Under the pieces are notes generated by a model that made no database searches, was not told the origin of the DNA, and saw only the letters and a list, made by a program, of their open reading frames with translations. The position numbers and the translations under genes were made by a program. Below are positions 3,097 through 27,945 of a stretch of 64,000 bases of DNA, one piece after another (position 1 is the stretch's first letter; every line of letters starts with the position of its first letter). The DNA is from [Lactobacillus] rogosae (GTDB lineage: Bacteria > Bacillota > Clostridia > Lachnospirales > Lachnospiraceae). The stretch lies in contig FONU01000003.1 in assembly GCA_900112995.1 (NCBI GenBank), positions 124,001-188,000 of the forward strand, read 5' to 3'.

Positions 3097-4812
3097 ATGA
3101 TAGGATTATTAAAATTTATTACATGCGGAAGCGTGGATGATGGAAAGTCTACATTAATAGGACATATATTATATGATTCAAAGCTTTTATATGCCGATCA
3201 GGAAAAGGCTTTAGAGCTTGACAGTAAAGTAGGAAGCCGAGGTGGTGCTATTGATTACTCGCTTCTTCTTGACGGACTTATGGCAGAACGTGAACAGGGT
3301 ATCACAATCGATGTTGCTTACAGATATTTTACAACAGATAAGAGAAGCTTTATCGTAGCTGATACACCAGGTCACGAAGAATATACAAGAAATATGGCGG
3401 TTGGTGCTTCATTTGCTGACCTTGCAATAATTCTTATTGATGCTAAGCAGGGTGTTCTTGTGCAGACTAAAAGACACGCAAGAATATGTGCCCTTATGGG
3501 AATTAAATATTTCGTATTTGCAGTAAATAAGATGGATTTAGTTGGTTACTCAGAAGAAAGATTTAACGAGATAACTAAGCAGATTGATGAATTATCTAAA
3601 GAACTTGGACTTGCAAGTGTAAAGATTATCCCTGTATCAGCAACAGAGGGTGACAATATTACAGTTAAATCTGATAATACACCTTGGTATACAGGCGAAG
3701 CACTTCTTACTTACCTTGAAAATGTGGATGTAAGCGAAAAGAAGAAGGAAGAAGGTTTTTATATGCCTGTTCAGAGAGTATGCCGTCCAGACCATACTTT
3801 CAGAGGATTTCAGGGGCAGATTGAATCAGGTGTTGTATCAGTTGGAGATGATATAATCACACTTCCTAGTGGGGAGTCAGCTAAGGTTAAGAGTATTCTT
3901 ATTGGAGATAAGGACAGTCAGTCAGCACAGGAAGGACAGCCAGCTACAATCCAGCTTGACAAAGAAGTTGACGTATCAAGAGGTTGTGTACTTTCAAGCG
4001 GAACAACACTTCCAGTAAGCAAGTCACTTACAGCAACAATACTCTGGATGGACGATGCAGAACTTACAGTTGGTAAGGATTACATTGTTAAGATTGGCAC
4101 TAAGCAGGTTCTTGGTGTATTAAAGAACATTCAGTACAAGATAGACGTCAATACAGGAAATTTCCTTCCAGCTAATGGACTTAGCAAGAATGAGATAGCA
4201 GTGTGCGATATTGGACTTCAGGAAGCAGTTGTTATTGATGAATTTGCAAAACATAAGACGCTTGGCGAACTTATTCTTATAGATAGAATAAGCAATATGA
4301 CATCTGCCTGCGGTGTTGTCACAGATTCGAGTGCATATGATAACAAAGAAGTAAAATGTGCATTTGTAAATGGAAGCCTTAAAGGAAATGCAGATATATT
4401 TGAAGAATATTATTATAACCTTGAAAGTGCTACAGTTACAAAGGTAAGCCCATCAGGCAAGACATACAAGGTCGGAGATGTAATTAACGTAAGCGGTGAG
4501 ACATACAGCTATCCAGATAACTTTGATGTAATCGTTCTTCGTGATAAAGTAGCAGTTACAGTAAGAGATAAGAAGATAGAAGCAATCACAAAGCTAGAAG
4601 AATATACATACACAGGAACACCAGTAGTCAACAGCCGTGGCTTTGAAATCAGGCTCAATGGTGAGGATGACTACAACAACCTTATAAATGACTTAAATGC
4701 CATCGAAACGGCTAACAAACCACTCAATGATGAATTCTTCAACAAGTGGACAAAATTCGATACTTACAGAAAAATCATCTTCAAGGATGAAGTATGGGAA
4801 TATGTAATATAA
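3097..4812 (+). CDS. cysN: sulfate adenylyltransferase subunit 1 (GTPase), with long C-terminal extension
   Basis: The GTPase subunit of ATP sulfurylase, 571 residues. Translation-factor GTPase motifs are clear: GSVDDGKST near residue 11, the switch region REQGITIDVAYRYF, DTPGHE, and NKMD. The conserved CysN core ends near residue 410 after LGELILIDRISN. About 160 further residues follow, longer than the classical protein of about 475 residues. They contain no P-loop, so this is not the CysN-CysC fusion with APS kinase. The ATG at 3097 comes one base after the cysD stop and is preceded by GAGAGAGGGG; an upstream in-frame ATG at 3040 lies inside cysD. The structured element at 4817 starts five bases after the stop. 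Confidence 0.93.
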   Translation: MIGLLKFITCGSVDDGKSTLIGHILYDSKLLYADQEKALELDSKVGSRGGAIDYSLLLDGLMAEREQGITIDVAYRYFTTDKRSFIVADTPGHEEYTRNMAVGASFADLAIILIDAKQGVLVQTKRHARICALMGIKYFVFAVNKMDLVGYSEERFNEITKQIDELSKELGLASVKIIPVSATEGDNITVKSDNTPWYTGEALLTYLENVDVSEKKKEEGFYMPVQRVCRPDHTFRGFQGQIESGVVSVGDDIITLPSGESAKVKSILIGDKDSQSAQEGQPATIQLDKEVDVSRGCVLSSGTTLPVSKSLTATILWMDDAELTVGKDYIVKIGTKQVLGVLKNIQYKIDVNTGNFLPANGLSKNEIAVCDIGLQEAVVIDEFAKHKTLGELILIDRISNMTSACGVVTDSSAYDNKEVKCAFVNGSLKGNADIFEEYYYNLESATVTKVSPSGKTYKVGDVINVSGETYSYPDNFDVIVLRDKVAVTVRDKKIEAITKLEEYTYTGTPVVNSRGFEIRLNGEDDYNNLINDLNAIETANKPLNDEFFNKWTKFDTYRKIIFKDEVWEYVI

Positions 4813-4816
4813 TGAG

Positions 4817-4936
4817 CCGTGCCTGACTTAACAGCAAAGTGATGCTTGTGCTTGCACAAAGCAGCACTTTGAAGCTAAGTCAGATAGGGCGAAGCCCGAC
4901 AGTTCCAGAAGCCAGAGGCTTCTGGAACTTGCACGG
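4817..4936 (+). ncRNA. structured 120-nt element, copy 1 (four helices, unknown class)
   Basis: Closing helix CCGTGC 4817-4822 / GCACGG 4931-4936. Inside: a long hairpin (CTGACTTA 4823-4830 / TAAGTCAG 4876-4883, then CAAAGTG / CACTTTG) capped by TGTGCTTGCACAAAGC at 4847-4862; a small hairpin GGGC-GAA-GCCC at 4887-4897; and a 12-bp hairpin GTTCCAGAAGCC 4902-4913 / 4917-4928. Copy 2 at 27751-27870 has the same length, layout, loops and junctions, but different, compensated stem sequences. No known RNA class was recognised. Strand is assigned from the GAA/GAAA loop and from the direction of cysN. A mobile palindromic DNA element is the main alternative. Confidence 0.7.
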
Positions 4937-4968
4937 TGTAAGCATCTTCTCCCACCCACCAGCCTATG

Positions 4969-19311: not shown

Positions 19312-19396
19312 GCAGTCGTGGCGGAATTGGCATACGCGCTAGACTAAGGATCTAGTCCATATTGCTTGGGTGCGGGTTCAAGTCCCGCCGACTGCA
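19312..19396 (+). tRNA. tRNA-Leu (anticodon AAG)
   Basis: An 85-nt class II tRNA. Acceptor stem GCAGTCG 19312-19318 / CGACTGC 19389-19395 with discriminator A. The anticodon stem CTAGA/TCTAG encloses the loop CTAAGGA, giving anticodon AAG for CUU. A long variable arm and the T-arm GCGGGTTCAAGTCCCGC are present. The CCA end is not encoded. Confidence 0.96.
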
Positions 19397-27327: not shown

Positions 27328-27738
27328 GTGATTACATTTAATAAGAGTGATTTTGATACAATACTTGAATATGCTAAGAAGAATCTTCCAGAGGAGGCTT
27401 GTGGTCTTATTGGAGGAACAATAGAAAATGGAGATAAGCACATAAAAAAGATATATCTTCTTACTAATATTGACCATTCCAATGAGCATTTTTCAATGGA
27501 TCCTAAGGAACAGTTAGCGGCAGTTAAAGATATGAGAGCTAATGGTTTAGTTCCTCTTGGCAACTGGCATTCACATCCAGAGTCACCATCAAGACCATCT
27601 GATGAGGATAAGAGACTTGCATATGACAGCAAAGCAAGTTATATGATACTTTCACTTATGAATATAGATGAACCAGTGCTTAATTCATTCCATATTGAAG
27701 GCAATGTATCAAATAAAGAAGATCTGAGAATAATATGA
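27328..27738 (+). CDS. hcyD: JAMM (MPN+) metallopeptidase, carrier-processing type
   Basis: A 136-residue zinc isopeptidase of the Mec+/QbsD type. The JAMM residues are the glutamate in PEEACGLIGG near residue 20 and NWHSHPESPSRPSDED near residues 75-90 (H-x-H with the serine and aspartate at the expected spacing). It probably trims GGGQR on the carrier at 26163 and releases homocysteine from the carrier after MetY acts. Start is GTG at 27328 with the strong site TAAGGAGGCG. The second structured element begins 12 bases after its stop. Confidence 0.9.
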   Translation: MITFNKSDFDTILEYAKKNLPEEACGLIGGTIENGDKHIKKIYLLTNIDHSNEHFSMDPKEQLAAVKDMRANGLVPLGNWHSHPESPSRPSDEDKRLAYDSKASYMILSLMNIDEPVLNSFHIEGNVSNKEDLRII

Positions 27739-27750
27739 TAAAGCATTGAG

Positions 27751-27870
27751 CCGTGCCGTAATAAACTATTAACCATTGCTGTGCTTGCACAAAGCGATGG
27801 TTAATAGTTTATTACGATAGGGCGAAAGCCCGGCAGTTCCATAAAGCTTTGCTTTATGGAACGTGCACGG
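27751..27870 (+). ncRNA. structured 120-nt element, copy 2 (unknown class)
   Basis: Closing helix CCGTGC 27751-27756 / GCACGG 27865-27870. A perfect 20-bp stem, 27757-27776 with 27797-27816, is capped by TGTGCTTGCACAAAGC at 27780-27795. Then a hairpin GGGC-GAAA-GCCC at 27820-27831 with a GNRA loop, and a 12-bp hairpin 27836-27847 / 27851-27862. Total length is 120 nt, as in copy 1 at 4817. Loops and junctions are shared (TGAGCCGTGC, the 16-base loop, GATAGGGCGAA), whereas stem sequences differ but still pair. Confidence 0.72.
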
Positions 27871-27945
27871 CGAAAAAGGCGTTGTGCACGGCGAAAAGCC
27901 GGCGTGCATGGCGAAGAAGGCATTGTGCACGGCGAAGAAGCGAAT
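27863..27945 (+). repeat. 21-bp tandem repeat of the element's 3' end
   Basis: Four units beginning GTGCACGG (third GTGCATGG) start at 27863, 27884, 27904 and 27925. Each continues with GCGAA and a purine-rich stretch. The first unit contains the closing strand of the structured element, so its 3' end appears to have been copied three more times. Confidence 0.75.

Follow-up and report, generated by a model that had tools for sequence, protein, structure and literature searches.

The two 120-nt segments at positions 4817-4936 and 27751-27870 of the window (the whole 64,000-nt stretch of DNA analysed here) represent a structured-RNA repeat of gut bacteria that is dispersed and was originally mobile. 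It measures ~120-150 nt, has four helices around a junction and is widespread in Lachnospiraceae; its fold is preserved although nearly every base of the stems has been exchanged. The repeat is a short sibling of Clostridiales-1 (Rfam RF01699, itself of unknown function) and not a member of that family. Most likely it resembles REP and ERIC in that it would modulate the RNAs that carry it.

A previous sequence-only reading of the window had reported both segments, and its coordinates, 120-nt lengths and common segments were all confirmed when the sequence was re-read: both copies share TGAGCCGTGC, TGTGCTTGCACAAAGC, GATAGGGCGAA and the closing CCGTGC/GCACGG. They also share a common plan, namely a closing stem (P1), a long hairpin with a CUUG loop (P2), a short hairpin of the form GGGCG(A)AAGCCC (P3) and a last hairpin (P4). 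The parts are located as follows, all on the + strand:

4817-4936, +, element copy 1 (match to covariance model R2 at 4799-4938, 105.3 bits)
4816-4822, +, copy 1, P1 closing stem, 5′ strand, pairing with 4931-4937 (fold, pair counts)
4823-4883, +, copy 1, P2 long hairpin, apical loop 4851-4854 within the conserved GTGCTTGCAC (fold)
4884-4897, +, copy 1, conserved ATA linker and P3 hairpin GGGCGAAGCCC (fold; P3 invariant in the seven copies of this genome)
4901-4929, +, copy 1, P4 hairpin (fold, pair counts)
4931-4937, +, copy 1, P1 closing stem, 3′ strand (fold)
27751-27870, +, element copy 2, also locus L001 (R2 match at 27733-27872, 135.3 bits)
27750-27756, +, copy 2, P1, 5′ strand, pairing with 27865-27871 (fold)
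27757-27816, +, copy 2, P2 long hairpin (fold)
27817-27831, +, copy 2, conserved ATA linker and P3 hairpin (fold)
27836-27862, +, copy 2, P4 hairpin (fold)
27865-27871, +, copy 2, P1, 3′ strand (fold)
27865-27940, +, behind copy 2, 3′-end units (GTGCACGGCGAAAAAGGCGTT-like) repeated in tandem, short and degenerate (by eye)

Copy 1 folds at -67.6 kcal/mol against a mean of -38.2 for dinucleotide shuffles (z -8.4) and copy 2 at -73.7 against -32.7 (z -11.3), and none of the 200 shuffles of either copy folds as well. It is the whole element that is improbable and not any single motif: TGTGCTTGCACAAAGC at up to 3 mismatches has two matches, a number reached by 15 of 100 shuffles, and GATAGGGCGAA at 2 mismatches has nine where 10.5 are expected, so that neither is rare alone.

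The stems of the long and the last hairpin had been described as different in sequence yet paired in both copies, and this holds across the seven full copies of the genome, in which 94.9% of 336 pair cells are standard. Covariation is overwhelming in these seven copies as well as in a larger alignment of 88 copies (A7, 87 of them from named records). More specifically, 28 of 48 pairs in the seven copies have changed on both sides (shuffled mean 13.9, matched by 0 of 500 shuffles), including 19 of 26 pairs in P2 and 9 of 11 in P4, and sliding the alignment by 1-3 columns leaves 35-45% paired. The A7 figures are favoured by an alignment that had been fitted to the structure: 89.4% of its cells are paired, 41 of 48 pairs have changed on both sides, both-sided cells number 1177 against 339 after shuffling, and the covariation score is 0.606 against 0.143 for shuffles and 0.03-0.07 for slides. 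Among non-Watson-Crick cells of P2, G.U outnumbers A.C by 82 to 21 in alignment A6 and by 69 to 29 in A7 (77 non-redundant rows each); P4 behaves alike (19 to 2 and 16 to 3), and P1 has 29 to 11 in A6 with no excess in A7 (10 to 9). This excess argues for selection acting on the folded + strand, a mutational strand bias also being possible. The proposal that structure is under selection is thus backed by the covariation, by the G.U over A.C excess on the + strand and by rewritten, paired stems at orthologous places (see below).

Two covariance models were used for the searches. R1 was built from the seven copies of the genome itself after a pattern search, and R2 from 88 matches, of which 87 lie on 78 named loci and one in genome G006, with no copy from the genome under study. 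In the window, R2 finds the two copies only, even at E ≤ 10 (135 and 105 bits). In the complete genome, R1 gives seven full copies (127-157 bits) and, at E ≤ 0.1, 13 matches, those beyond the seven being weak, antisense, partial or of RF01699 type. At E ≤ 0.001, 29 of 61 genomes are positive, this one counted, with a maximum of 24 matches per genome, and the positives include 2 of the 24 genomes outside its family; copies in relatives are many, and they pair, so that the outcome which the sequence-only reading had named as its refutation did not occur. The exact pattern occurs in at least 117 stretches of named genomes, and 78 of the 117 named loci (L170-L286) were scanned with R1, L175, L203 and L250-L286 being left out. 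Hosts among the matches listed are mostly labelled as Lachnospiraceae or as its genera (Hespellia, Lacrimispora, Hungatella, Roseburia, Enterocloster and Konateibacter, which we take to belong to this family), and two listed hosts (L257, L278) are metagenome-assembled genomes labelled Muribaculaceae and Bacteroidales. A search for plasmid carriage of one copy of the genome (L004) gave no match, and the two phage-type matches, both UNVERIFIED faecal scaffolds without annotation, were left out of the analysis. No description of the family was seen in the titles and abstract openings of the papers listed for Clostridiales-1 and for small bacterial repeats.

The sequence-only reading did not recognise the class, a point that has to be revised in part, since among Rfam families RF01699 matches each copy best (33.2 bits for copy 1 and 43.8 for copy 2), though below threshold. 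Neither window copy reaches the curated gathering score of 48 bits, models of unrelated microRNA hairpins score up to 23.3 and 31.3 bits when the same copies are searched, and a scan of the window for known Rfam families gave none at threshold on either element. (The sole at-threshold Rfam match in the window is a tRNA gene at 19312-19396.) Model positions 1-166 of RF01699 are nevertheless aligned in both copies, a full-length match, and the architecture agrees: a closing stem, a CUUG-capped long hairpin with a GUGCUUGCAC-type cap and a bulge on its 3′ side, and two further hairpins. The differences are in size, ~166 nt for Clostridiales-1 against ~120 nt here, and in the second hairpin, here reduced to GGGCGAAAGCCC. 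In the reciprocal direction, R2 matches the four canonical RF01699 copies of the same genome (L008-L011) over P2 only, at 14-25 bits, and one of three other strong RF01699 loci (L288) in full length at 20.9 bits. Intermediates exist, since at least six places match both R1 (E ≤ 1e-3) and RF01699 above its cut-off (G000:C8, G002:C1:2019419, G017:C118, G019:C23, G023:C49 and G023:C7), the RF01699 score being 83.7 bits at G002:C1:2019419 and 81.1 bits at G019:C23. The scores below the cut-off and the restriction of R2 to P2 in canonical copies, taken together with these double matches, are the reason for speaking of a sibling and not of a member. RF01699 itself is found in 25 of 61 genomes at E ≤ 1e-6, in many copies per genome and in the same host group.

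Weak RF01699 scores depend on search filters: in a multi-locus Rfam search three copies of the genome match at 32.6-42.7 bits, below threshold, while L001 (copy 2) and L002 are not among the matches listed for it, yet copy 2 scores 43.8 bits when searched alone. In the parts of Weinberg et al. 2010 available here (PMC2864571), Clostridiales-1 is found only as a table entry, which gives it as ‘probably RNA’ and ‘probably not’ cis-regulatory, from Clostridiales/human gut. This orphan motif of 2010 now looks like one branch of a larger family that has position rules, promoters and recent mobility. Some observations on Clostridiales-1 itself were made in passing. The four strong copies L008-L011 (143-152 bits) are, at least in some cases, bounded by ATGAT/ATCAT-like inverted ends as in MITEs (by eye), and a weak Clostridiales-1-like fragment (L018, G000:C5:17133-17221, 23.9 bits) lies between two reading frames, which we presume to be cas1 and cas2. 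In the element studied here, GAGCCGU has what we take to be a resemblance to domain V of group II introns.

The position of the element relative to genes was examined in 183 copies, obtained from A6 (107 rows) and A7 (88 rows), 195 rows in all, from which 6 rows below 101 nt, 1 in antisense and 5 duplicate rows had been removed. An upstream reading frame was called for 166 of them (117 co-oriented and 49 divergent), and the element starts within 25 nt of the end of that frame in 57 of the 117 co-oriented cases against 4 of the 49 divergent ones, the reading-frame calls behind these counts being crude. Downstream, the frame is co-oriented in 117 of 150 cases, 55 of those within 120 nt, and a convergent frame ends within 25 nt of the element in 2 of 33. 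Promoter and stop classes were assigned to 147 anchored copies, 33 of the 183 being unanchorable and 3 lacking upstream sequence. An exact TATAAT lies upstream of 47 of the 147, against 18 of 987 background windows; it is placed 19 or 21 nt from the anchor in 41 of the 47, and a -35 box with at most 2 mismatches accompanies it in 22 of the 47, where 5.2 are expected. The promoter class holds 63 copies and the stop class 54 (13 in both), 15 copies lie behind a T-run and 30 belong to none of these. The terminator finder applied around the elements detected a terminator in no more than 24 of 475 control genes, which voids its result there. The element has a fixed polarity at transcript boundaries: it directly follows the stop codon of a co-oriented gene, or it stands 19-21 nt downstream of a -10 box accompanied by a -35 box.

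Both window copies are of the stop class, with no promoter in register. Copy 1 starts 4 nt behind the stop of a CysN gene (NCBIfam TIGR02034, above cut-off), which adjoins a gene with a PAPS-reductase domain, and copy 2 starts 12 nt behind the stop of a Prok-JAB gene, which adjoins a ThiF gene. Of the earlier claim that both follow a sulfur gene within a dozen bases, the position behind the stop codon stands, while the tie to sulfur genes does not extend to the family. A sulfur-gene regulon was rejected because the named neighbours of other copies are unrelated housekeeping genes: copies follow groEL, ychF, a TrpB-like gene, an RNase P RNA gene (at 14 nt, L077:1507-2019) and, in a single case, a tRNA (L170).

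Several lines of evidence indicate that the family is, or was, mobile, and it has recently amplified in some genomes. Single-linkage clustering at ≥85% identity unites 13 of the 15 copies of G014 (median identity 0.93) and 6 of the 21 of G021. Several copies make up the 5′ portion of longer repeats that seem to be noncoding; the longest alignments of these measure 1133 nt (G014) and 807 nt (G021). Copy 2 is absent from the corresponding intergenic site in G018, the nearest relative identified for that place (adjacent gene 88% identical), a site too diverged to define the ends of the element, and 21 loci around related cysN, thiF and JAB genes in other genomes of the genus gave no R2 match at E ≤ 1. 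The sister species G006 and G020 share five sites (flanks judged by eye, and measured for two), and at three others (two in L103, one at L112) the element is internally deleted or disrupted in one species, so that some copies are dispensable. Neither a clean empty site nor a target duplication was found at the G006/G020 sites or the G018 site; insertion is therefore shown only indirectly, the compared sites presenting absence in G018 or internal deletion or disruption. P1 (7 bp) is the sole terminal inverted repeat seen in either window copy. The repeats of up to ~1.1 kb that have the element as their 5′ part occur at L086, L089, L090, L092 and L094 in G014 and at L069 and L077 in G021; an Rfam search of L086, L069, L077, L089, L092 and L094 gave at threshold only the RNase P RNA that neighbours the element in L077.

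Partial tandem copies are one-sided: 26 of 89 rows have one downstream, whereas only 1 of 93 has one upstream, and this is nearly full length (locus L038 is part of L118 and was counted twice, and L036 likewise duplicates part of L103). All but one of the 26 downstream copies lack at least the first 27 nt, and 20 stop no more than 5 nt short of the 3′ end. The tandem units behind copy 2 resemble these partial duplications, and the family test did not flag copy 2. At L099:1284-1538, the P2 loop of the partial tandem copy is inverted (ATGCTTGCAT) relative to that of its full copy (ATGCAAGCAT), possibly a trace of hairpin-templated copying.

The sequence-only reading had offered a regulatory or processing RNA and a mobile element as alternatives; both are alive and may both hold. 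For a dispersed, originally mobile RNA repeat that would act in cis as an untranslated module altering the processing or stability of its carrier RNA, we put the probability at roughly one half. The principal rival is a selfish, non-autonomous mobile element, the folded + strand of which (as single-stranded DNA or RNA) would serve its own movement, for example as substrate of a Y1 (HUH) transposase, with stop-adjacent sites merely harmless ones. Near-identical copies at separate places in G014 and G021 speak for it, as does decay by deletion, and the consulted part of PMC3049150 regards the BOX, RUP and SPRITE repeats as parasites. Y1_Tnp is present in 18 of 37 genomes, among them all seven copy-rich ones, that is in 7 of 7 genomes of the genus with at least 6 R1 matches, compared with 6 of the 15 that have fewer (a hand-calculated p of ~0.01, uncorrected for relatedness or for testing two families). 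The link to copy number is a weak correlation only. Several Y1 matches are fragmentary or contain stops (G000, G014, G017), G015 (99% complete, 3 R1 matches) has no Y1, and the 17 of 43 listed Y1 regions that were examined hold an R1 match only in G006, a weak one of 31.4 bits. A selfish repeat tolerated outside genes would predict much of the same pattern, which counts against the functional reading, as do the 30 of 147 copies without promoter, stop or T-run, the missing G.U excess of P1 in A7 and the decay of copies by deletion between sister species; harmless insertion, however, leaves the one-sided polarity and the -35 boxes unexplained, and a purely selfish nature is held to be unlikely.

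A SINE-like mode of movement, in which the element has its own promoter and its transcript is copied from the 3′ end, would account for the 26 downstream against 1 upstream partial copies and for the 5′ truncation of 25 of the 26. The same shape arises, however, from tandem duplication starting within the element, and the downstream piece in G021 (L076) is a 5′ part. RVT_1 is found in 11 of 37 genomes, including G021 (one match), and is not found at E ≤ 1e-5 in the other six of the seven copy-rich genomes of the genus, some of them incomplete: G000 (99.99% complete), G006 (100%), G014, G017, G018 and G020. Mobility by reverse transcriptase was set aside for this reason and appears highly improbable. 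A cis-regulatory leader of the downstream gene, of the riboswitch or attenuator type, would fit the co-oriented downstream frames (117 of 150, 55 within 120 nt) and the RNA start predicted from the TATAAT distances, which in the promoter class falls a few nucleotides ahead of P1. Against it stand the 54 of 147 copies that adjoin a stop codon, the freedom of P2 to vary in sequence and the neighbouring genes, of no consistent kind among the few named, so that such a leader is improbable.

Orthologous sites bear on how the stems come to differ. Among 22 groEL loci scanned with R1 (of 30; the gene end was automatically readable in 18 of the 22), the element lies directly behind groEL in G006, G020 and G021, and the P2 sequence of G006 and G020 is unrelated to that of G021. 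In G005 a different long hairpin follows groEL, and most of the other 14 readable groEL ends have some stable hairpin, several with a T-run (by eye). Where the element follows a TrpB-like gene (NCBIfam NF009057) in three named genomes, the upstream sequence is 82-87% identical, the element 88-94% and the downstream sequence 50-76%. At the ychF site of G006 and G020, the flanks are 95.4-95.5% identical and P2 carries 7 both-sided changes, 6 of them packed into 8 bp, a total of 12 substitutions for which a Poisson model at 4.6% gives 3e-11 (the block was picked after seeing it). P2 is identical in three of the other four G006/G020 pairs and differs in the remaining one by a single both-sided and a single one-sided change. 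In nine P2 comparisons of equal length, of which the three TrpB-like ones are not independent (L214/L246 was dropped for unequal length), there are 23 both-sided changes, 22 of them standard in both copies, against 7 one-sided ones.

Perfect arms and both-sided changes about three times as frequent as one-sided ones, once in a block, suggest that hairpin-templated correction of the DNA would contribute to perfect re-pairing. In a further rival reading, the compensation would be mutational and not selected, template switching re-perfecting long palindromes with no need for an RNA function; the 23 to 7 ratio, the 6-pair ychF change inside 8 bp and the identity of P2 in three of five G006/G020 pairs all favour this. 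The excess of G.U over A.C (82 to 21) suggests that selection is also at work, and palindrome repair alone would not be expected to conserve the loop, the linker, P3 and P1, which renders a purely mutational origin very improbable. A more speculative possibility, rather improbable as well, is a mobile RNA of which only the shape is kept: helices would be overwritten in blocks, both arms together and from a template, such that sister species would have different perfect stems at the same place. If true, the stems could be selected to diversify, for example because this would keep copies from recombining or would let RNase III release double-stranded RNA specific to each copy. In any case, one gene end with differing stems provides a natural series for asking how RNA helices change without broken intermediates.

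The reading of the element as a cis-acting RNA module is judged the most likely because of its position and the precedent of ERIC. The element would be transcribed together with neighbouring genes and would act in cis on the processing or stability of the RNA that carries it, as ERIC, REP and NEMIS do. Recognition would rest on the CUUG-capped tip of the long hairpin, on the AUA-P3 hairpin and on P1, whereas P2 and P4 would be spacers in which pairing alone matters. In the part of PMC2229807 available here, ERIC is co-transcribed with its neighbours and makes upstream mRNA less stable in an orientation-dependent manner, and ERIC/IRU, NEMIS/Correia and RUP resemble the present element in size (~100-200 bp) and in transcripts that form long stem-loops. 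Compared with what is given there, the present element differs in its hypervariable stems with compensation, in P1 as its sole terminal inverted repeat, in its hosts and in that no target duplication was found for it. The BOX element of Streptococcus pneumoniae is likewise interspersed, structured and expressed (PMC3049150, in the part available here). The likeness to it is one of description, and the part repeated in the present element is mostly its 3′ portion. In BOX repeats, internal modules are repeated in tandem. REP/BIME sequences with RAYT are short palindromic units behind genes, for which a Y1-type transposase is suspected, and the element differs from them in that it does not flank the Y1 genes looked at, one weak case excepted. 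Since there are cultured bacteria among the carriers (Hungatella hathewayi DSM 13479, Lacrimispora celerecrescens 152B and Hespellia stercorisuis DSM 15480), an effect on mRNA is directly testable.

A separate repeat of ~115 bp (TATAATGTGCAC...GTGCACATTATA, followed by hairpins and the end GGTATAATGT) was encountered at L103:7454-7570 in G006 and at L338:2997-3150 in G020. Its place is within TATAAT promoters, where it seems to duplicate TGGTATAATGT. In G020, the promoter of one copy of the element is split by this repeat, which is present at other places too.
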